From a virus: 22,091 nucleotides of DNA. A model generated the notes under the pieces. It saw only the letters and a list, made by a program, of their open reading frames with translations. It searched no databases and had not been told where the DNA came from. The stretch spans positions 1-22,091 of the IMG/VR virus record IMGVR_UViG_3300035660_000814; one strand, 5' to 3'. The position numbers were made by a program, and so were the translations under genes. Shown here one piece after another: positions 4,323-19,865 of the stretch. Position 1 is the first letter of the stretch. The number at the start of each line of letters is the position of its first letter.

Positions 4323-4814
4323 TTGGGCGGGGGAAAGAATTGGACAGAGGCTGAAGAAAGGCTTCTGTTTGAACTGGTTCAGAGAGGAATGAACGCGCAG
4401 CAGATTTACGATTCAGGCATGTTTCCGAACCGCACTTTTCGCGCCATACTGAACGTGGTTGACAGAACCCGCATTGATTCAGGCGCTGAAAAGGAAGTCC
4501 CTCTGAACGCTCAGATTGGAGAGGCTGAAATAATCGGATTGGACTCCGTTGTCAAACGGTATGTTGATGCTTTCAACAAGGTTTGCGATTTGAAAGCATG
4601 CAGTAAAGAGGATTTGGAGCGTTTTCGCATCATCTTTTCTTCGGCTCGCGCTTACTTTGAAGTTTATTACAAGTTTCAGAAGTACGAAGAGGTAGAAAGA
4701 CGTGTCGAGAGAGTTGAAAAGTTGGTGGCACAGTTGGCAGCAAAGAAGAACGCAGAGGATTCTCACACAAAGCTTGGACAAAACGGAAACCCAAGTCCGC
4801 AACCTCCTGTATGA
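4323..4814 (+). CDS. terS: putative terminase small subunit
   Basis: A 163-residue protein starting at TTG 4323 behind a GAGAGG ribosome binding site that overlaps the end of the upstream gene. The N-terminal 50 residues (NWTEAEERLLFELVQRG, then a second helix pair) resemble a SANT/Myb-like or helix-turn-helix DNA-binding domain. A central helical part follows. The C-terminal coiled coil (about residues 118-145) is rich in Glu, Arg, Val and Lys. This DNA-binding head plus oligomerising helices is typical of small terminases, which recognise viral DNA for packaging. The assignment also rests on its place directly before TerL, whose frame it overlaps. No catalytic motif is expected or seen. Confidence 0.65.
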   Translation: MGGGKNWTEAEERLLFELVQRGMNAQQIYDSGMFPNRTFRAILNVVDRTRIDSGAEKEVPLNAQIGEAEIIGLDSVVKRYVDAFNKVCDLKACSKEDLERFRIIFSSARAYFEVYYKFQKYEEVERRVERVEKLVAQLAAKKNAEDSHTKLGQNGNPSPQPPV

Positions 4815-6485: not shown

Positions 6486-7874
6486 TTGAGTTTGGCCGCT
6501 GAAAGGGTCCGTAAGGGTTTGCAGGCTGTCAAGCAGTTTGTAGGTAGATTTGTTGCTCAGCGACAAGTTCCCGAAGGCGTAAGCAAGAAACAGATTGAAG
6601 AGGAGGTACCCGTCAGCTGGAAAGCTGACAACATGCTCTGGGGCTACGTCACCAAGTACATGCTTAAGGGCTCGGGAGCCGGCTTTGTTACTCCTCCATA
6701 CATGGCGTATTGGGAACGTCTTTGGGGCGCGACGCCCGTCGAGGACCTTCCGGCCTACAAGGATTTATACACTTTTACGCCGTACATCAAGGCAAGCATT
6801 GACGTTACTGTGAACATGTCCATTGCCCAGGGTTTCGAACTTGAAGGTAGCGACGAGCAAATTCGCGAGTGGCTTACGGATTGGCTTGACGAGCATAATA
6901 TTCTGCACACTTTGAGAATCATCGGCACGGACATGCTTGTTTTTGGCAATGGTTATTTTGAGATTTGCCGCGATGAGGAGACACCAGTTGAGGAATGGTG
7001 GCTTAAGACATTAGATCCCGTGCACATGCGAGTGCGGAGGGATGCGTACGGCAATGTTTTCGGGTACGTTCAACTTTTGACATTTCCTCCGGTCGCTTTT
7101 GTTGCGAACGACATTGTGCATTTCCGTTATGGCGCCAAGAGCTGGTGGTACGAGTGGAGTTACGGCACTTCCCTTCTTAGGTCATTGTTGAAGCTGCAAG
7201 CACTGATTGACCAGCTTCAGGATGACATGGCGCTTATAATGCACATTTACACTAAACCCATGCTTGTCGTGAAAGCTGGGACGCCTGAAAGGCCCTTCAG
7301 TGATCCGCAGCTGCAGAGTTTAATGGAGGCTTTTCGTGATAGGAAACCTGCTACAGACATTTTCGTTCGTGGTGACGTTGAGGTTACTGTTGTTCAGAGC
7401 ATGACGAAGGAAGTTAACATTGAATGGTGGATCAATTACCTTCTGGTTCAGCGATCCGCTGTACTTGGCGTTCCGAAGATTTTCCTGGGCGAGAGCGAGC
7501 GGACGAACCGTGCGACCGCAGAGATTGTAATGCAGGAGTACGTTACTCGGCTGCGGATGCTGCAGGAACTCATCGGGGACACGTTGGAGACGGTTCTCTT
7601 CAAGCAGTTGATACGGGAAAAGTGGGGAGAAGGCAAAGAAGTTCCCCATATTAAATGGCGGCCTGTCTGGGAGCCCACGCTTGACGTGAAAGCCAACTTC
7701 ATCACGAACTTGGTTAAGGAGAAGATTATCGCGCCCAGTGAAGCTAGGCCCCAGCTTGGCTATCCAGAGGAACTGCCTGAGGGATTATCGGAGAAGGGCC
7801 CTAGTGACGCGTCTGCTGGGTCCTCCGTTGCGATGGTCGAGGAGAGTGAGCCTGAGGATGCAGAGAACGCTTAG
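6486..7874 (+). CDS. portal protein
   Basis: A 462-residue portal, the dodecameric ring at one head vertex through which DNA enters and leaves and to which the neck attaches. The sequence has the expected mixed alpha/beta wing and long helices. Notable segments are YTFTPYIKASIDVTVNMS (about residue 95 onward), a central DIVHFRYG motif, a helical stem around LLKLQALIDQLQDD, and a crown with GVPKIFLGESERTNRATAE. The last 40 residues are acidic and low in complexity. TTG 6486 is chosen as start, 5 bases after the membrane protein stops. Position between terminase and prohead protease is canonical. I am confident of portal identity but not of the subfamily. Confidence 0.9.
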   Translation: MSLAAERVRKGLQAVKQFVGRFVAQRQVPEGVSKKQIEEEVPVSWKADNMLWGYVTKYMLKGSGAGFVTPPYMAYWERLWGATPVEDLPAYKDLYTFTPYIKASIDVTVNMSIAQGFELEGSDEQIREWLTDWLDEHNILHTLRIIGTDMLVFGNGYFEICRDEETPVEEWWLKTLDPVHMRVRRDAYGNVFGYVQLLTFPPVAFVANDIVHFRYGAKSWWYEWSYGTSLLRSLLKLQALIDQLQDDMALIMHIYTKPMLVVKAGTPERPFSDPQLQSLMEAFRDRKPATDIFVRGDVEVTVVQSMTKEVNIEWWINYLLVQRSAVLGVPKIFLGESERTNRATAEIVMQEYVTRLRMLQELIGDTLETVLFKQLIREKWGEGKEVPHIKWRPVWEPTLDVKANFITNLVKEKIIAPSEARPQLGYPEELPEGLSEKGPSDASAGSSVAMVEESEPEDAENA

Positions 7875-10014: not shown

Positions 10015-10908
10015 ATGAGTTTTCAAAGAGACGCTTTAACATGGGTTGACACCGGGGCGGTAGCGTATCCGGCGTTGCACCAGCACATCATCGAATTGAC
10101 CATGCCCGCACTTATCGTGAAGCGTTTGCTGCCTGAATTTCCGCTGGTCGCAGGACGAACGGCAACGTTCGTCAAAGAAAAAGGTTCCCGCAGCATCGGC
10201 ATCAGCGAGATCACCGAGGGCGCCGAGATTCCGATGGATTTCACGCCCCTTGACTATGTGAGCATAACGCCCTATAAGAAGGGCGAACGGATCCGTGTAC
10301 CTCGCGAGCAGATTGAAGACCTCTACATCCCAGTAATAGAACAGCAGCTCAGACGTCTAGCAAGACGTGTCGCATACCAAATTGACAAGGACTGCCTCAC
10401 ATGTATTGACGCTGCGGCTGCCAATTCAAGCGCCGGCACAGGCACCAGCATGGGAGCCACAGGAGTAGAGTTCACGGTCTCAGGCGGCATCGGCACAAAA
10501 GACATTCTGTGGGCTGACGCGAAGATTGCAAGTTACAACTTCCTCGCTGACAGCATCCTCTGCAATCCGATTAACGCTCGCGATCTAAAGTACCTCCCAC
10601 ATTTCAGCCTAGCTATGCAGTACGGTGAACCAGTGATCCAGTCAGGAGCAATCGGCAAAGCGTACGGTTTAGACTTGTACGTGAGTACCGTTGTGTCTGC
10701 AGGCACAGCGTACGTGTTGAGCACGGGTCAAAACCTAAGTGGTTCTTATGCTCCCCTCGGATTCTTCGTTATCAAAAGGCCTTTGCTGTCTGATTTGGAC
10801 GTAAAGAAAGAGTTCGACGCAGTCGACGTTAGCTTGACTACGAGGTATGCGCCAGTTGTCACGGTCGGAGAAGCAATCGTCAAAATAACTGGGTTGAATA
10901 CAACTTAG
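10015..10908 (+). CDS. major capsid protein, HK97 fold
   Basis: The 297-residue main shell protein. An early amphipathic helix is followed by an E-loop region (FVKEKGSRSIGISEITEGAEIPMD, about residues 55-80). The P-domain long helix is IPVIEQQLRRLARRVAYQIDKDC (about 103-130), and the A-domain includes DILWADAKIASYNFLADSILCNP. The C-terminal beta strands end in APVVTVGEAIVKI. This layout matches HK97-fold capsid proteins without an N-terminal delta domain. It follows the decoration gene by 11 bases and is followed by a T-rich tract, consistent with a highly expressed transcript ending there. Confidence 0.92.
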   Translation: MSFQRDALTWVDTGAVAYPALHQHIIELTMPALIVKRLLPEFPLVAGRTATFVKEKGSRSIGISEITEGAEIPMDFTPLDYVSITPYKKGERIRVPREQIEDLYIPVIEQQLRRLARRVAYQIDKDCLTCIDAAAANSSAGTGTSMGATGVEFTVSGGIGTKDILWADAKIASYNFLADSILCNPINARDLKYLPHFSLAMQYGEPVIQSGAIGKAYGLDLYVSTVVSAGTAYVLSTGQNLSGSYAPLGFFVIKRPLLSDLDVKKEFDAVDVSLTTRYAPVVTVGEAIVKITGLNTT

Positions 10909-10983: not shown

Positions 10984-13308
10984 ATGAGTTCGGACAACAA
11001 TAAGGGGTTAGCCCAGAGTATTCAGGTTAATGGTTTGACGTGGGCTAAGACGTTGATGATTTGTGCAATCCTAGTGTGTGCTGGGGTTGCCGCGTATTTT
11101 GGTGCGAACGTTTCCGTGAACATGAGTCTTGACGCAAGAGTCTCGGCTATGGAGAATCGAATGGACATTCCTGTGAATAGTACTCTTAGCGCGTTCATTA
11201 AATCTAACAGTTTTATAGTCTCTCAGCTTGATCAAGGCTTCTGTCTGCAGAATGGTACGAATGCTGCGTACCTTCCCCCGTTCACAATAAACTCTTCGCT
11301 AATCATCGAGAATGGCCTAGCAAACGCAAGTAACAACGGCGGCGGCAGCGTCTACGTTGCGGCAGGCGCAAACCTTTACAATGCTAGCGTAGTTGTCCTG
11401 AATAATACTCGGCTTGTCCTCGAGTCCGGAGCAAAGAATATAACGTATTCTTGCGCAGCGAATGCCTACGCGATTGTAGATGACTTTCAAAACTGGATTT
11501 TCATCTATTACAGCAATGGCCTTCCGTACAGCGTCTTCAATTACGCAACTGGAAATCTACTTACGCAATCTGCAAATATGACAAGCCTCTACTGCACTAC
11601 AATAGACCAACTAACCGCTGGGCAGGGCATTAGAGTTCTCAATCTAATTGTTCAGAGCGGCATAAGCTTTCCACCTTCCTCACTTGATAAGCAGGTATTC
11701 TTCAGAAGCGATCAGGGATACTTGTACATAAACAATAGCGGACCATGGATTCCAATCGGCGCTATCCCAAGTACCTATCCCTACGCAAACCTGACGGGCG
11801 TACCCAACACATTCCCCTATGCGAATCTCACCGGTGTACCGAATACACTTCCATATGCGAACGTGACTGGAACACCGGATTTAGCCGTGTACTTATTTGC
11901 GAACGGCACAAGGGCTTTGACTGGAGACTTGAACTTTACCGGAAGCTATGGCGTTTATGGTGCATATTGGCTAAACAGCACAAACATTAGCTTTAATGGG
12001 CAACTCTTGTTGAACGGGCAGAACAAGACTGATACGATTGCGTATCCCATTGAGCCTGTCGCCTACATCGTTGACTTTTCTGATGGAATCACGGCACGAG
12101 TGAAAAACTGCACAACCGGCCAAGTAGACTATCAGAATTCCAATCAAACATTGGCGATCCAATACGCCTTCAATCATACAGACTGGACGGGTGCTCATGG
12201 AACACAAAAGGTCGTTCTAAGAGGTAACTTCAGCCTTAACTATTATCCAAACGTGCCCGCGTATTCAGACATCGAGATTCAAGGCTACTTGAACGTTTCA
12301 AATAAAGCTGCTTTTATGCTTGGCTTCGATGATAGTCTGGCAATTCAATACAGTACTTACTTCAAGAATATGACGACGATCTGGGGCTACAGAGGAGATC
12401 AAGGAGTTGTGGTCGACTGGGTTAGTCATGCAGGAGCAACAAACACAACCTATGAGACTCTTGCGAACTTGAAAGAAATGCGCGATGCAGGATGGAGTTT
12501 CTACAGCCACGGCTGGTACAGCATTGATCTGAGCGCTGCTTCTATAACTCTTCTTCAGCAAGATCAAGAAATCAGGGGGAGCAAAGACTGGATTGAACGA
12601 AATCTGGGCATACGAGTTGACGCAATTGGTTGGCCTAGTGCCAAGCAAGGTGATTTGGAAATGGCGAGGCAATACTACAATTACCTTGCCTACGGAAACT
12701 GGAAATCATGGCCTAACCAAACGTGGAATTACATCTCAGATGTCATGAGCTGCTATTTTCCAGATGAAAATAACTGGAATGGATCAAAAACTGCTGGCGG
12801 GGTCATCGCATCTGCTGCTTGGTACGCAGTCAATAGCACGGGCTCAGGGTCAAATGGCGAGCTTGCAATTCTAACGTTCCATGGGACAATGACTAATACT
12901 GTGTTCAATCAGTGCATGGGAAATCTGAGTAGTTTTGGTCTGCCAGTTCTGACTTGGCGAGATATTGACTACTACCTTAGCAAACAACCGAAGCCGACTA
13001 TTGCAGGTGCAGATATTGCTCTTAGAAATGAAGGAAACCAAACAGCTTGCGTTAACGGAACATGGATAAAGCATAATCTTGGCGTAATACCTAACTCGAC
13101 ATCCTTGCTGCTGCTCGGTCCAGCTTATGTAAATTCAACATGCTGGGTTATTCAACCAAATATCATAGCTTCGAATAGCACTTTCTTTCAGATAGAGTTC
13201 CTGATTAACAATGCCGGGACAGTCACGCCCGTTGCCGCAACAGACAATCGAACGATTTACTGGACTTGCTACTACGAGAAAATCATTATCTATCCTGCAC
13301 AAACGTAA
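10984..13308 (+). CDS. membrane-anchored, sequon-rich polysaccharide deacetylase-like / fibre protein
   Basis: A 774-residue exported-looking protein; AGGAGT precedes ATG 10984. Residues 20-43 form a transmembrane anchor or signal. Residues 60-260 are beta-rich. Residues 265-300 hold three 12-residue repeats (PYANLTGVPNT type), followed by ALTGDLNFTG, all typical of tail-fibre proteins. About residues 440-660 resemble a NodB polysaccharide deacetylase: GFDDS (447-451), SHGWY (His509), GWPS, LTFHG (630-634). The second metal His expected four residues after His509 is Ser513, so activity is doubtful or altered. The last 90 residues form a beta domain also found in the next gene. I count about 36 N-X-S/T sequons, far more than in neighbouring virion proteins. 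T-rich tracts on both sides suggest its own transcription unit. It is either a surface-exposed cargo protein or an exported virion fibre. Confidence 0.7.
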   Translation: MSSDNNKGLAQSIQVNGLTWAKTLMICAILVCAGVAAYFGANVSVNMSLDARVSAMENRMDIPVNSTLSAFIKSNSFIVSQLDQGFCLQNGTNAAYLPPFTINSSLIIENGLANASNNGGGSVYVAAGANLYNASVVVLNNTRLVLESGAKNITYSCAANAYAIVDDFQNWIFIYYSNGLPYSVFNYATGNLLTQSANMTSLYCTTIDQLTAGQGIRVLNLIVQSGISFPPSSLDKQVFFRSDQGYLYINNSGPWIPIGAIPSTYPYANLTGVPNTFPYANLTGVPNTLPYANVTGTPDLAVYLFANGTRALTGDLNFTGSYGVYGAYWLNSTNISFNGQLLLNGQNKTDTIAYPIEPVAYIVDFSDGITARVKNCTTGQVDYQNSNQTLAIQYAFNHTDWTGAHGTQKVVLRGNFSLNYYPNVPAYSDIEIQGYLNVSNKAAFMLGFDDSLAIQYSTYFKNMTTIWGYRGDQGVVVDWVSHAGATNTTYETLANLKEMRDAGWSFYSHGWYSIDLSAASITLLQQDQEIRGSKDWIERNLGIRVDAIGWPSAKQGDLEMARQYYNYLAYGNWKSWPNQTWNYISDVMSCYFPDENNWNGSKTAGGVIASAAWYAVNSTGSGSNGELAILTFHGTMTNTVFNQCMGNLSSFGLPVLTWRDIDYYLSKQPKPTIAGADIALRNEGNQTACVNGTWIKHNLGVIPNSTSLLLLGPAYVNSTCWVIQPNIIASNSTFFQIEFLINNAGTVTPVAATDNRTIYWTCYYEKIIIYPAQT
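11776..11883 (+). repeat. three in-frame 36-bp repeats in the fibre-like protein
   Basis: Three consecutive units encode YPYANLTGVPNT, FPYANLTGVPNT and LPYANVTGTPDL. The protein copies are nearly identical but the codons differ, so the repeat is maintained at protein level. Such PYANLTGVP repeats are common linkers in tail fibres and trimeric adhesins. Confidence 0.85.
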
Positions 13309-13355: not shown

Positions 13356-14084
13356 GTGGGTTCAGCAACTATCCTTGCCGGAAACACTTACGTTGATGTA
13401 CCGCACGGTCTCTCCTTCACGCCGACAATCGACCAGATCGTGCTAACGCCTCAAGATGCTCTGGGCGGCAGAAGCTTTTGGCCTACTAATCCAACCTCAA
13501 CAACTTTTCGCATAAACATAGACATGGCCGATCCTGACACAAACCACACTTTCAGCTGGCAGCCAATTACGCAAGTGGCCCCGCCATCTCCACCTCAGCC
13601 GCCTAGCCCGACTCTCACGGGCCCGGGCGTGTATACTACAACTGACGAGGTTCAAGCGCACCTGAACGCGAGTTACGACGCAACAAGCCAGGTATACACC
13701 GTGTTTGGTCTTCCAGTGTATCTAACAAGTTTTCAGGCTCACGTTGACCATGCCAACTTGTACGTGAACTCGATTGTGGGCTCTGTTCTTTCTGTTTCAG
13801 ATCAGCGCTATGACTGGGCTAAGATGGCTGCTCTTGAGTTGGCTTGTCTTCGTGTCCTTGTGGCGGCAAGTGGGGGCATGCTCCTAGGCGCCTTTGATTA
13901 CCGTCTAGGAGACCTTTACATCACGAAGGCCAGTGTTAGCCGGCTTGCCTTCCAAAATGCAGTTCAAGGCTTCCATGATGACTTGTTAAGGGTTCTCATG
14001 AACTTTTCGACGTCTGTTGTCGCGGCAGAAGCAAGCGCCAAGGATGATGTGCCAACCTACAAGGGAGGGCTCATGAATCCGTGA
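13356..14084 (+). CDS. head-tail adaptor with N-terminal lectin-like beta domain
   Basis: A 242-residue two-domain protein starting at GTG 13356. Residues 1-70 are a beta-sandwich-like module (ILAGNTYVDVPHGLSFTP, later STTFRINI, HTFSW). It recalls H-type-lectin or C-terminal fibre domains and resembles the end of the preceding protein. A Pro-rich linker (PPSPPQPPSPT) follows. The remaining 150 residues (TTTDEVQAHLNASYD, then many helices with DWAKMAALELACLRVLVAASGG) fit the helical head-tail adaptor families (HK97 gp6/SPP1 gp15-like) that dock on the portal. Position after the capsid gene and before the stopper supports this. A lectin-like head on an adaptor is unusual. Confidence 0.65.
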   Translation: MGSATILAGNTYVDVPHGLSFTPTIDQIVLTPQDALGGRSFWPTNPTSTTFRINIDMADPDTNHTFSWQPITQVAPPSPPQPPSPTLTGPGVYTTTDEVQAHLNASYDATSQVYTVFGLPVYLTSFQAHVDHANLYVNSIVGSVLSVSDQRYDWAKMAALELACLRVLVAASGGMLLGAFDYRLGDLYITKASVSRLAFQNAVQGFHDDLLRVLMNFSTSVVAAEASAKDDVPTYKGGLMNP

Positions 14085-14424: not shown

Positions 14425-16047
14425 ATGGGCACTGTTCCCCAGAGCTATTACGATTTCATTATGCATTACGCGCCGTACTTTTACGTGATTCCAACCTTGC
14501 TGACGGCAGACGCGGCATCAGGACAGAAGAACGTAACGGTTGCGGATGGTACAAAGTTTCAAAGTGGATACCCAGTCCAGATTAGCGATGATGTCCACAG
14601 CGAGTGGAACATCGTCTCTTCTGTGAACGGTAACGTTGTGACGATGCAGAATAACCTTGCAAATACGTACCATGTCGCCAAGAGCGGTAAGGTTGAAGGC
14701 CCAGATCCCAGTTATGGACGGGGCGTTTTTCCAGCGGCCTTCGCAATCGACTTTCTCTCCCAAGCTTATTCAAGCACCCAGTTCGCGGCCAATCAAGCGG
14801 ACATCTTGTCGAAGATTGAGAGTCTTGCTAACTTTATTCTCACGCAGCAGTGCACTAATGTGGCAAAGAATGCGTATGGCGGATTCCAGAATAGCGAGAG
14901 TAGCCAACAGTACTGGAGCATCGACGCGGGAAGATGTATCCCTGCGTTGCTGAAGGCCTATAGCTTAGCCGGCACAAGTAGCTATCTTGCAGCTGCGGTC
15001 CTTGCGGCGCTCACTTTCCTCGGTAACATGCGGACTTTGCCGGTCTTTTTTGGCGTACACGACAGGTATTACGGTGGATTCGCAAGGTACGTCACCATCG
15101 ATGGTGACTGGAGCGAACAGATCGACGTTGAAAACCTGTACTGCCTAATCGGCTTGCAGATGCTAGCACAAACTCACGATTCAGGGAATGTTAGCAGGTA
15201 CAACGCAATGATGAGCGATCTGGTCAATTTCTTGCGCAGCGGATATGAGCAACTGTACTTGTGGTTTGATCCGAAGCCCACGGGCGACGGGAACTGGCAC
15301 CGTGTCGGCCTTGGCGAAACTCAAATTTATGATGATCCGATGAGCTTCGCCCTGCTTGGCCTCTACACATATGAAGATTGGAGTTCAACATGTCAGCAGG
15401 TTTACAGTTTCCTGCAGAGCATTAGGGCTTCAGCGCAGTATCCAGGGTATAACCCTAGCATCTGCTGGCCTGGCTACATTGACGTTATAGGAAGATTTCC
15501 GGCATGCGCCTATTACGACGCGGTGACAAGTGGGATCCTCTCCAAAATCAGGGCTACGCATGATAAGCCGAGCCTTGCACTGAGCATGCAAATGATCAGC
15601 AAGTATCAGGACGAGTTTCTGTTTTGGGGTCCAGTATTCACGGATTACAGTCCGATCACACAGCAAAAGGCTATGGCAAACGTCACGTGGCTTGCGGAGT
15701 TCTTCCTCAACTATCAGGATCCCGTCACAGATATGACTCGCGCCATAGATTTGAGCGGTGAGAACCTTATTCTCTATTCTGTTGAAGAGGCTGCTGATCA
15801 AGTTGCTTGGGACGAAGGCTTAAGCATTAAGGGCCTTGTCACCATGGGGGCTGCTGGCGAAATAGTTATTGAGCCAGGCTATATCACGGAAGACCATATT
15901 ACGGTTTATAGCTTCTTGCCGGTGCGCGTTCATGACAAAATCCGCCGCCGAGGCGTGGACTACGAGGTCTTGACAGTTCAGGTTTTCGACTTGAATGGGG
16001 ATCCGCAGTATTTCAAGAGTGTCTGCAGGAAGTTGATAAGTCAATGA
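14425..16047 (+). CDS. head-closure (stopper) protein carrying an alpha/alpha-toroid enzyme-like domain
   Basis: 540 residues, where head stoppers are usually near 100-130. The last 100 residues (SGENLILYSVEEAADQVAWD, EPGYITEDHITVYSFLP, VHDKIRRRGVDYEVLTV, ending CRKLIS) look like a complete small beta-barrel stopper that closes the portal and joins the tail. Before it, about residues 28-85 form a beta module (SGQKNVTVADGTKF...VQISDD). About 95-430 form a helical repeat domain with glycine-aromatic turns (YGGFQNS, SIDAGR, YYGGFAR, YDDPMSF), typical of six-hairpin glycosidases, lyases or epimerases. Acidic residues in DGDWSEQIDVEN and YDDP are candidates for catalysis. The substrate is unknown. 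The stop overlaps the next start (ATGA). Confidence 0.7.
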   Translation: MGTVPQSYYDFIMHYAPYFYVIPTLLTADAASGQKNVTVADGTKFQSGYPVQISDDVHSEWNIVSSVNGNVVTMQNNLANTYHVAKSGKVEGPDPSYGRGVFPAAFAIDFLSQAYSSTQFAANQADILSKIESLANFILTQQCTNVAKNAYGGFQNSESSQQYWSIDAGRCIPALLKAYSLAGTSSYLAAAVLAALTFLGNMRTLPVFFGVHDRYYGGFARYVTIDGDWSEQIDVENLYCLIGLQMLAQTHDSGNVSRYNAMMSDLVNFLRSGYEQLYLWFDPKPTGDGNWHRVGLGETQIYDDPMSFALLGLYTYEDWSSTCQQVYSFLQSIRASAQYPGYNPSICWPGYIDVIGRFPACAYYDAVTSGILSKIRATHDKPSLALSMQMISKYQDEFLFWGPVFTDYSPITQQKAMANVTWLAEFFLNYQDPVTDMTRAIDLSGENLILYSVEEAADQVAWDEGLSIKGLVTMGAAGEIVIEPGYITEDHITVYSFLPVRVHDKIRRRGVDYEVLTVQVFDLNGDPQYFKSVCRKLISQ

Positions 16048-17030
16048 GCAACCTTGAGGATCCAGTGACGACGACGATTCGTCTTCTTAACCAGAACATG
16101 CGCGTTGTCAAGAATGATGATTCGATTGCTAGCGTGTACGTAAGCCAGCAGTGGTATGACCGCGAACTCTTCAAGAATTATGATGGCCAAGTAACCGTGG
16201 GCCTGAGTCAGAGCGAGGATCACAAAATCGACTTAAGCGGCAAGATACGTCAGCGACAAGGCAGGCTTGCCGTGAATGTGTGGGCTACAGACAAGGTTGG
16301 GAGTTCAGACACGGGCAGAAGCATGCGGCAGAAGATTGTGGAAGAGATAAACCGTGTTGTGCGGCAGAACATGAAAGTTCCCAATCAGACCCTTTATGAT
16401 TTTGTAGGACTCGGATATCCCTCTGGGGATCCGCACAAGGCTTTTCAAGCTGCAGGTGTAAGCGAGTTTGCTCCGGGCAACGCGGCCTGGATTGAGCTTT
16501 CAAGTACGAATTACCAGAAAATTTGGACTGCAGATTCCATAGATTATAGCAAGAGCACATCAGTCAACCTTCAATACGGTATGATGCTTTTCCGCTTCAA
16601 AGTAGCCAGCAAGGCGCAGACGGTCCTGAAAATTGTCTTAAGTTTTGTGGGTTACGGAACCGCTCCCGGAGGGAACGGTGGCACGATTGAGGTGTGGAAT
16701 CAGGTGGCCTCTGCCTGGCAAAACGCTGCCACCGGATCCGGAGGCGCAAATGAAGCTATCATTATCACATTGACTTCAAACTTGACGAATTACATTGACG
16801 CGAACGGATACGTTTGGTTGTTGGCGAGAACGACAAACTCGAGCAATGGGTCCTCTGCGGCCGTGCTCTACTGTGATTATGTTGGCTGCACAGTTACCGT
16901 TAACGGTATCACGTACTTGGACGTCGTGGCCTTTCGTGATAGGGACAAGGTTGACGTGAAACCGTTCATTTTCAGGACAGAGTTTGTTCTGAAGTCATGG
17001 TCCTTCGAGGACATTGGAGGCATATTCTAA
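16044..17030 (+). CDS. tail terminator protein with inserted beta-sandwich
   Basis: A 328-residue protein that begins like a tail completion/terminator subunit, the ring that ends the tail tube and binds the head: DPVTTTIRLLNQNM, VYVSQQWYD, QVTVGLSQSEDHKIDLSGKIRQRQGRLAVNVWA, MRQKIVEEINRVVRQN. The family is normally 120-160 residues. At about residue 115 it is interrupted by some 165 residues rich in Ser, Thr, Gly and Trp, predicted beta (FRFKVASKAQTVLKIVLSF, TIEVWNQVASAWQNA, ANGYVWLLARTT). The terminator then resumes from about 290 with DVVAFRDRDKVDV and the C-terminal FVLKSWSF strand. The insert resembles carbohydrate-binding jelly rolls. It overlaps the stopper stop codon by 4 bases. Confidence 0.7.
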   Translation: MSNLEDPVTTTIRLLNQNMRVVKNDDSIASVYVSQQWYDRELFKNYDGQVTVGLSQSEDHKIDLSGKIRQRQGRLAVNVWATDKVGSSDTGRSMRQKIVEEINRVVRQNMKVPNQTLYDFVGLGYPSGDPHKAFQAAGVSEFAPGNAAWIELSSTNYQKIWTADSIDYSKSTSVNLQYGMMLFRFKVASKAQTVLKIVLSFVGYGTAPGGNGGTIEVWNQVASAWQNAATGSGGANEAIIITLTSNLTNYIDANGYVWLLARTTNSSNGSSAAVLYCDYVGCTVTVNGITYLDVVAFRDRDKVDVKPFIFRTEFVLKSWSFEDIGGIF

Positions 17031-17043
17031 AAGGTGATCAAGT

Positions 17044-17919
17044 ATGAGTGTTGAAACGTACGGTGCGCATGAATCGCGAATCTATTTTGTGGCAGAAACT
17101 GTGTATAGCGAGACGCCTGCTAATCCTGCATTCCTTGGAATAAACACGGAAGGCATGGAGCCGAAAGTAGATCCTGGATTGATAAAAACGATGGGTATTG
17201 GTAGCAGAGACCTTCAAAGTCTAAATGCTGGACTGGAGAAAGTAACGTTGAAAGTTCCCAGTGCCCTATCGAGTGTTTCGCCTATTAGTTTCATACAGCA
17301 TGTTCAAACGCTCAGCAGCTTAAGCGTTCAAATCCTCTATTACAAAGGCTTGTGGTCAAATCCATCGGACATTCTTAGCTTTCTTTTGACTGGTTGCAAG
17401 ATTGACAAGCTGAGCGTTGAATGTCACCTGGAAGATGTGATAAAAGCAAATGTTGAATTGATAGGACGAAATATTGGATATGGAACTTCTTTGATCACAG
17501 GTGCAACATACGGTGACTTTTCTGGCGCAGTTCCGTTCAACAACTCTTATGTGCAGAAGGGTGTTCCCTCAGGCGGAAGCGGTGTGACCTTAACTGATGT
17601 GACTGATTGGAAATTCGATGTTGAGAATAACCTGAAACCTGTTGGAGTGATTCAAAGCGGTGGCACTGCATTATGGCTAAAATATTTGCGTGAAAGAAAT
17701 CGTAAGCTTGAGGGCGAGTTGACTATGGAGTTTGAGAGCAACTCCGAGCTTGTGGATATCTTGAATGATACTGAGTTCAGTCTGCTTTTCGGCCTTGGAA
17801 GCACAAACACGGCCTTGTTCAAGCATTGCAAGTGGGAAGATTGGGACTTGCCGAACAAGAAAGAGGACCTTGTGAGCGTGAAGGCGAAGTTTGTTGCTCG
17901 AGATCTCTGGATAAGCTAG
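17044..17919 (+). CDS. major tail tube protein
   Basis: The 291-residue subunit that polymerises into the tail tube. A textbook GGTGATC site lies 5 bases upstream of ATG 17044. Beta-rich segments such as ESRIYFVAETVYSETPA, LEKVTLKVPSAL, VECHLEDVIKANVELIGRN, RKLEGELTMEFESNSEL and the final KEDLVSVKAKFVARDLWI match the tail-tube fold with its hairpin. Position between the tail terminator and the tail assembly chaperones is standard for siphoviruses. The host and the tube size cannot be told from this. Confidence 0.85.
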   Translation: MSVETYGAHESRIYFVAETVYSETPANPAFLGINTEGMEPKVDPGLIKTMGIGSRDLQSLNAGLEKVTLKVPSALSSVSPISFIQHVQTLSSLSVQILYYKGLWSNPSDILSFLLTGCKIDKLSVECHLEDVIKANVELIGRNIGYGTSLITGATYGDFSGAVPFNNSYVQKGVPSGGSGVTLTDVTDWKFDVENNLKPVGVIQSGGTALWLKYLRERNRKLEGELTMEFESNSELVDILNDTEFSLLFGLGSTNTALFKHCKWEDWDLPNKKEDLVSVKAKFVARDLWIS

Positions 17920-18505: not shown

Positions 18506-18680
18506 GACAGATTATCGCTTGTGCAAAGAGTTCGGATGGACAGTCGAAGAGTTAGAGCAGCAACCTAGTAAGAAGATACAGGAATTTCTGATAATTCTTG
18601 CAGAGATTGACCGGCAGACTCAACAGGAAATTGACAAGGCCAAGAGAGAATCTGGTTCTCAAAGGGGCTTCCGTGGATGA
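18477..18680 (+). CDS. tail assembly chaperone extension (gpT-like), reached by -1 frameshift
   Basis: 67 codons in the -1 frame of the gpG-like gene. Written from ATG 18477, but probably made mainly as the C-terminal part of a frameshift fusion entering at 18465. Content is helical: PALTDYRLCKEFGWTVEELEQQPSKKIQEFLIILAEIDRQTQQEIDKAK. The core FGWTVEELEQQPSKKIQEF is typical of T-domain proteins that contact the tape measure. The GAGGG before the ATG is only 3-4 bases away and lies in the predicted stem, so independent initiation looks poor. Overlaps the next gene by 4 bases (ATGA). Confidence 0.75.
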   Translation: MRRGRPHPALTDYRLCKEFGWTVEELEQQPSKKIQEFLIILAEIDRQTQQEIDKAKRESGSQRGFRG

Positions 18681-19097: not shown

Positions 19098-19865
19098 ATG
19101 AGCAATATGGGTGAATTGGGTGTAACTATCAAGGCGGTTAATGAGGCTACGCCTGAGTTTGAAGCGATCAGTGGTGACGCTGCAAGGATGGGTGACAATA
19201 TCGCTTCTGTGGGTGCCAGTGCTGTTGGCTCCTTCAGCCAGGTTGGGGTTGCCGCGACAGAGATGTGCGCAGACGTCCGCGTTGCAGGTGAGAGCTTCAC
19301 GGATATGGGCACGCATGTTGAGGCTTGTGAAGTGAGCTTACGCACGGTTGCAGGCGGCATCAGGAATTTTGCTATGATGGGTTCAGAGATCACAATGCTG
19401 GCTAATGATTTCGGGCTCGTGGATAAAGAAACAAACAAGTACCTGCGCACGGTCATGACCATGATAATGGTTGTATCCACAGCCGCTCGAATGTACAGCT
19501 TCCTATCAGTCATGACAACAGGGCACACGGCCGCGATTGCGATTGAAGGCACGGCAACAACGGCTACTACCGGAGCGATTAGCCTTTCAGCAGTTGCCCA
19601 CAATATTTATGCTGCCGCCTGCAACTTTGCTACGGCCTGCCAGAACGCTTTAAACATTAGCCATGCAACCTTTCTGGCCTTGACAGGTGTGGGAATCGGG
19701 GTTATCATTGCCGCTGCTGCTGCGGTCTCTATTTTTGCAAGTCAAATGAACGCTGCGACTGCAAGCGTCAATAATTACAATGATGCAGCGAGCAAAATTC
19801 CAAAAGTGACCAAGGGTATTCAACGTGCTCAGGAACAGAATATGCTCCGGCGTGGTGTTGAATGA
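19098..19865 (+). CDS. short tail tape measure protein
   Basis: A 255-residue protein with a typical tape measure opening (LGVTIKAVNEATPEFEAISGDAARMGDNI). Ala/Gly/Met-rich helices follow, with two hydrophobic segments (about residues 115-145 and 197-222, the latter GVGIGVIIAAAAAVSIFA). Tape measure proteins set tail length and may form the channel for DNA entry through the membrane. This one is very short; many siphoviral ones exceed 600 residues. The frame is intact and ends in an ATGA overlap with the hub gene, so truncation by frameshift is not evident. GGAG lies 12 bases upstream of ATG 19098. Confidence 0.75.
   Translation: MSNMGELGVTIKAVNEATPEFEAISGDAARMGDNIASVGASAVGSFSQVGVAATEMCADVRVAGESFTDMGTHVEACEVSLRTVAGGIRNFAMMGSEITMLANDFGLVDKETNKYLRTVMTMIMVVSTAARMYSFLSVMTTGHTAAIAIEGTATTATTGAISLSAVAHNIYAAACNFATACQNALNISHATFLALTGVGIGVIIAAAAAVSIFASQMNAATASVNNYNDAASKIPKVTKGIQRAQEQNMLRRGVE

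Follow-up and report, generated by a model that had tools for sequence, protein, structure and literature searches.

Gene Neighborhood and Likely Host

The window, that is, the whole stretch of DNA analyzed, is a 22,091-base IMG/VR virus record in which Pfam and PHROG profiles recognized tailed-virus genes. The major capsid protein is encoded on the plus strand at 10015..10908 (Pfam Phage_capsid_4, 4.5e-9; PHROG_1650, 2.2e-13). Farther along the same strand lie an adaptor-like protein extended by a beta segment at its N terminus (13356..14084), assigned by its position before the stopper; a 540-residue protein with an ATG start (14425..16047); a tail terminator-like protein that contains a large beta insert (16044..17030), named from position and conservation only; and the tail tube protein (17044..17919; Pfam Phage_tube_2, 3e-14). 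Pfam and PHROG searches also pointed to an HK97-gp10-like gene at 18677 and gave weak matches for a tape-measure-like gene at 19098 and a hub-like gene at 19862. A terminase-like gene at 4702 and a portal-like gene at 6486 were named by position and sequence.

The 540-residue product is one protein of three parts: an (alpha/alpha)6 toroid, an inserted Rider-like beta module, and a C-terminal stopper barrel. An earlier note on this DNA had read ORF 14425..16047 as a single fused protein, and it was found exactly so. Scans of viral contigs yielded >200 relatives. Because full-length homologues with 43–89% identity are present in >100 contigs, omega for the whole protein is low (∼0.08–0.14 against close relatives), and toroid and stopper are complete in one frame in 188 distinct ORFs from IMG/VR contigs and Bathyarchaeia genomes, the ORF is a real gene. 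As a direct query, the window protein gave no significant match in Pfam, the PHROGs, a phmmer search of the PDB, or 50,697 phage records; relatives and profiles were needed to identify its domains.

The gene slot, with the adaptor on one side and the tail terminator and tube on the other, is where a stopper is expected. The order adaptor, toroid-stopper fusion, terminator-like protein, and tube was found in >100 loci, wherever the neighbors were recognized, and the annotation of Arthrobacter phage Tuck has the identical order of adaptor, stopper, terminator, and tube. Confirmed hits in cellular genomes numbered 11, and every one is in a genome titled Candidatus Bathyarchaeota. Some part of the fusion profile was matched in 52 of 257 genomes of the Bathyarchaeia class, a count in which some genomes have no more than short fragments or the Rider module. 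In a phylum-wide draw of 398 genomes, the strong matches were all in genomes already within this class. Since the confirmed and the strong matches all lie in Bathyarchaeia genomes, the host is very probably a Bathyarchaeia archaeon.

Fold of the N-terminal Domain

The 540-residue protein was modeled with AlphaFold2 from an alignment of 121 sequences (43–89% identity), which gave a pLDDT of 94.5 and a pTM of 0.93; with only 13 sequences the model was poor (pLDDT 57.6). The model has twelve helices that form six hairpins in a closed ring. The toroid spans residues 93–432 (14701..15720, plus strand), as delimited by the model, the fold search, and conservation. Its first three hairpins are 101–115/118–140, 165–182/185–208, and 235–251/253–275, followed by 303–317/321–331, 367–379/381–393, and 417–429/6–15. 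The last of these involves the N-terminal helix of residues 6–15 (14440..14469, plus strand; DSSP of the model), which we read as pairing with helix 417–429 and closing the ring, because of the helix order and an aligned range that starts at residue 1.

A fold search with VIA-align 2 superposed 302–338 model residues (range 1–439) on (alpha/alpha)6 enzymes at Z 27–28.6. The best solved match was 3ren_B (Z 28.6, 302 residues, rmsd 3.0), with AGE-type epimerases tied at the top, among them the cellobiose 2-epimerase 5zig (Z 28.4, 330 residues, rmsd 3.4). AGE, GH88, and GH76 enzymes were found at Z 24–28, the GH76 structures themselves at 23.7–24.7. The matches listed for the full model were filled by toroids, and stoppers therefore do not appear among them. 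The proposal that the ∼400 residues preceding the stopper form a complete six-hairpin domain is thus borne out by model and fold search. Its description as glycosidase/lyase-like held for the glycosidase-type fold and not for a specifically lyase-like one, the nearest structures being AGE epimerases, GH76, GH88, and GH8-type enzymes. The complete ring is shared with AGE epimerases, GH76, GH88, the GH8-like 3ren, and the C5-epimerase C terminus (Z 24–28.6), as is an acidic and aromatic conserved set with the (alpha/alpha)6 sugar enzymes. However, identity to these enzymes is only 6–16%, and the toroid is joined to a capsid-closing protein.

Inserted Rider-like Module

Residues ∼24–92 (14494..14700, plus strand), between helix 6–15 and helix 101–115, form a Rider-like beta module, recognized from a below-cut-off match to K1-lyase_Rider and from relatives. 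The match to this profile (Pfam PF24149) had an E value of 0.015 and 16 bits against a cut-off of 27 and covered 30 residues only. The ∼400-residue domain is therefore a toroid as proposed, though not an undivided one, since this segment is a separate beta insert. The insert is optional: more than half of the relatives lack it, for example homologues of the L044, L048, and L120 type. Because the same module is present in tail hub proteins and in a beta-helix protein of relatives, it is, as judged from these sequences, a mobile part. In comparisons of close relatives, its dS departed strongly from that of the adjoining segments (1.18 in L020, 0.14 in L021), which suggests that it has been exchanged by recombination.

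Conservation and Possible Function of the Toroid

The toroid is under purifying selection, with an omega of 0.11–0.13 where dS was measurable. Asp-303, Asp-304, Asp-365, Trp-291, Tyr-342, Tyr-363, Tyr-364, Arg-376, Trp-401, and Trp-422 are kept in all 121 sequences and Asp-167 and Arg-170 in 120; Arg-293 also belongs to the invariant or near-invariant positions in this set. The expectation of conserved acidic residues was thereby confirmed, with Asp-167, Asp-303, Asp-304, and Asp-365 present in at least 99% of the 121 sequences and located at inner-helix starts. In the (alpha/alpha)6 fold, the active site is held by the face formed by the inner-helix starts and long loops, and in the model most of the invariant residues lie there. 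This face comprises 58% of the domain and contains 31 of the 51 near-invariant positions and 17 of the 24 invariant polar or aromatic ones, which is a slight enrichment. Because the excess of 17/24 over the share of the face is modest, the argument rests on residue identity: an adjacent Asp pair, a third Asp, and several Trp, Tyr, and Arg residues are the stronger point.

Two enzyme families were compared in terms of chemistry. GH76 alpha-1,6-mannanases have an adjacent catalytic Asp-Asp, and the adjacent and invariant Asp-303–Asp-304 may correspond to it; GH76-like chemistry is possible. The second comparison concerns AGE. If the toroid were an AGE-type sugar epimerase or isomerase serving as an auxiliary metabolic enzyme, the presence of AGE enzymes among the top fold matches (Z 27–28) would be explained. 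However, AGE chemistry depends on conserved histidines, and no histidine of the family is invariant or reaches 93% in the 121 sequences (the best, His-292, is present in 87% and replaced by Tyr in 11%), so AGE chemistry is unlikely. Nor is there a reason why a metabolic enzyme should be tied to the stopper almost throughout this group of viruses, and we consider this explanation very improbable.

The Pfam family C5-epim_C, the C terminus of D-glucuronyl C5-epimerase, was matched by 9 of 10 diverse family members and exceeded the cut-off in two homologues, L104 and L120, with roughly half of the profile covered. The window protein did not reach C5-epim_C in the Pfam search and met no CAZyme family cut-off, and residue-level equivalence to the catalytic pair of a named GH or CAZy family was not established. 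We rank processing of glycans ahead of a role in which the toroid binds them without any chemistry.

C-terminal Stopper Domain

The C-terminal ∼105 residues (436–540; 15730..16044, plus strand) were assigned as a head stopper, or head-closure, domain from fold, profiles, and position. In the model the strands of the barrel span residues 446–536. A Foldseek search against viral models returned “Closure knob,” “Gp16_SPP1, putative phage head-tail adaptor,” and “Head-to-tail stopper,” with targets of 105–130 residues and ∼110 aligned columns. PHROG_939 (“head protein”) matched 10 of 17 stopper-domain members, at best with 3.5e-9. The stopper domain of the window gave no PHROG match on its own, so that the profile link runs through relatives only. 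Two further comparisons contributed little. A profile search of the PDB with the stopper returned head-closure and head-tail joining chains at E 0.57–1.6, which we did not count as evidence. In hhalign comparisons of the stopper and terminator profiles with single sequences (HFTV1 gp29 and Arthrobacter phage Tuck), the stopper aligned over 21 columns only and was uninformative. The identification of the C-terminal domain as an SPP1 gp16-like head stopper is supported by the modeled fold. The earlier assignment of the last ∼100 residues to a stopper thus holds, from the Foldseek matches and the PHROG links of relatives, with a start at ∼436 rather than 440.

Residues 477–486 (15853..15882, plus strand) form a flexible loop (pLDDT <50) with conserved Glu-479, Glu-483, Gly-485, and Tyr-486. 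It is a candidate for a channel-facing plug loop, and its flexibility and conservation are compatible with a ring that closes the channel.

The stopper profile also matched the C-terminal ∼100 residues of a 696-residue protein (L162:7821-9908, G060:C1) with E 1e-16 to 7e-22. This protein is topoisomerase VI subunit B, followed by a topoisomerase VI-A-like gene, and it was dropped as a viral fusion. The stopper fold has apparently been reused in a cellular topoisomerase VI subunit B, or the match is a provirus scar.

Free-standing Stoppers in Sister Viruses

The earlier note had suggested a search for shorter stoppers in sister viruses, and stand-alone stoppers of 112–125 residues were found in the same slot. 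The provirus L161 (G071) encodes one that begins at the fusion border and matches the profile with E 1e-38; L161 was part of the alignment behind this profile, and a profile built without it still found the L161 stopper with E 1.3e-19. It is flanked by a 121-residue adaptor and a 157-residue terminator-like protein. Four IMG/VR contigs (L260–L263) have a free stopper at the same place. The stopper of the more distant L252 was matched by the stopper HMM (3.5e-8) and by PHROG_501, “head closure Hc1” (7.3e-10), and its sole phage match, a weak one (E 0.09), is an annotated head-to-tail stopper; even there, NCBIfam gp16_SPP1 did not reach its cut-off. The free stoppers do not include the short frames with stopper or toroid similarity in L017, L019, L107, and L126, which lie at contig ends or frameshifts. 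Terminator-like ORFs of the sister viruses have 140–202 residues and no beta insert. The terminator-like protein of the window (16044-17030) has a beta insert of ∼170 residues that is absent from the sister viruses with free stoppers.

In a midpoint-rooted tree of the tail tube, L161 lies inside the toroid-bearing group, and the outgroups have no toroid, which suggests that the toroid was gained once and later lost or exchanged. L161 further shows that a tail of this family can do without the toroid, a point against the glycan role proposed below.

Free stoppers of the same size are also a point in favor of a fusion that is cleaved after synthesis, the C terminus alone joining the virion and the toroid acting in the cell, in lysis, envelope remodeling, or sugar metabolism. 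Some proviral copies are split as well, such as that of G130:C10 (399- and 159-residue frames), although gene decay seems to account for these. Against cleavage stand the 188 intact fused ORFs and the model, in which the toroid runs straight into stopper helix 436–444 with no long cleavable linker. We regard this explanation as improbable.

Other Additions at the Neck

A right-handed beta-helix gene immediately precedes a free stopper-like gene in three sister viruses (L253:8685-10211, L167:2575-4101, and L256:4239-5762), and L254 encodes a 357-residue beta-helix protein in the same placement (L254:10153-11223). The stoppers of these four were named by position and appearance, that of L254 without a profile match. 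The L253 protein matched Pfam Beta_helix (9.8e-27) and the tail-spike family PHROG_7458 (3e-13), and the beta-helix proteins of L253, L167, and L256 carry the Rider-like module as well. By eye, L255:7747-8418 (G034:C1) has an Fn3-like domain inserted between the stopper strands, and the 461-residue L249:8156-9538 (G099:C21) has a TIM-barrel-like part of ∼300 residues on the terminator. Profile searches found no family match for the TIM-barrel-like part, and no stopper gene was recognized between adaptor and tube in L249. Because sisters hold a beta-helix gene, a TIM-barrel-like part, or an Fn3-like insert there, the neck slot repeatedly acquires such domains in these viruses. Being unrelated folds of a surface-glycan type, these additions also speak for the role proposed below.

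Proposed Role and Comparison with Known Systems

With moderate confidence, we propose that the protein serves as head stopper in a Bathyarchaeia virus with a non-contractile tail and bears an outer (alpha/alpha)6 toroid that binds and processes host glycans. The C-terminal beta-barrel would form a ring between adaptor and tail terminator and close the head after packaging. Each subunit would place its N-terminal 435 residues outside this ring as a single (alpha/alpha)6 domain, and a hexameric stopper, as in other siphoviruses, would surround the neck with six toroids. The cleft would most likely bind and process glycans of the host surface, either an N-glycosylated S-layer or exopolysaccharide, and so may help the particle to pass through or remain in the glycan layer during attachment. 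That an enzyme-type domain at the neck is an unusual arrangement, as first noted, stands with respect to a toroid fold encoded in a neck gene slot; an active enzyme displayed on the virion is what we infer from it.

A non-catalytic toroid, that is, a lectin-like or structural neck collar whose old cleft binds host or sediment glycans or thickens the neck, is less likely but deserves attention. A binding site would show the same fold and conservation, a structural part would leave the same picture in the sequences, the Rider-like insert, the beta insert of the terminator, and the Fn3-like insert of L255 look like adhesion modules, and the window protein meets no CAZy family cut-off. However, the Asp-303–Asp-304 pair, Asp-365, and Asp-167 are invariant in 120–121 of 121 sequences, and among viruses that infect different hosts a binding site is usually more variable.

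Few small components of tailed virions are as conserved as the stopper, and the expected places for glycan enzymes are the tail tip and head fibers. The stopper described here resembles the SPP1 gp16/Hc1 family (PHROG_501, PHROG_161, and PHROG_939) in fold, slot, and a profile link via free-standing relatives. However, known members have ∼100–150 residues, whereas the stopper of the Bathyarchaeia viruses has a 435-residue N-terminal domain fused to it. Phage phi29 is a podovirus with an appendage at the neck made of a separate protein of another fold, gp12. This appendage protein degrades wall teichoic acid, as cited in PMC6116005. A polysaccharide-degrading virion appendage at the neck is the common element; in contrast to the separate gp12, the toroid is covalently part of a siphovirus-type stopper. 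In siphophage R4C, the stopper is a hexamer and uses its N-terminal helix to contact the adaptor (PMC10276861).

We found no stopper with a fused enzyme fold described in the open-licence literature. Tailed viruses of Bathyarchaeia have been described (PMC10848311, PMC11705971), and the parts of these two descriptions covered here do not mention a stopper-toroid fusion. Within that literature, a neck surrounded by domains that bind or cut sugars would be new for this tail type. The covalent and lineage-wide fusion implies that the neck itself contacts host glycans, which, if true, would alter the entry model for archaeal tailed viruses. For Bathyarchaeia, a sediment group that is abundant but has hardly been cultivated, the toroid would also offer a practical way to approach surface glycans that have yet to be described.

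More tentatively, throughout a group of siphovirus-like viruses of Bathyarchaeia the stopper may double as a glycan-processing collar of six covalent (alpha/alpha)6 enzymes, and the neck may be a general docking site for surface-glycan enzymes, which the sisters would occupy with other folds: a beta-helix next to the stopper, a TIM-barrel-like part on the terminator, and a deacetylase-like protein linked to the adaptor. The archaeal comparison is HFTV1, whose turret head gp31 has a deacetylase fold on capsid hexamers and is proposed to weaken the S-layer; in the description of the HFTV1 tail, connector gp26 and tail completion protein gp29 have no stopper listed between them (PMC12494034). In both archaeal tailed viruses a putative glycan-active domain lies elsewhere than at the tail tip, a deacetylase fold on the capsid in HFTV1 and a toroid on the stopper here.

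The window itself encodes a 774-residue glycoprotein-like protein at 10984-13308, with a polysaccharide-deacetylase match of 0.00078, below cut-off. It has an N-terminal hydrophobic anchor and 36 N-X-S/T sequons, 4.7 per 100 residues, whereas none of the other genes counted exceeds 1.2. A second glycan enzyme docked at the neck is one possible reading of this protein, which would then compare with the HFTV1 turret head. Homology between its deacetylase-like C terminus and the adaptor extension was considered and rejected, as BLASTP gave no alignment. The deacetylase-like protein occurs only together with an adaptor extended N-terminally by ∼85 residues, in the subgroup of the window: adaptors have 238–243 residues where the gene is present (four lineages), compared with 153–160 residues where it is absent (54 loci).
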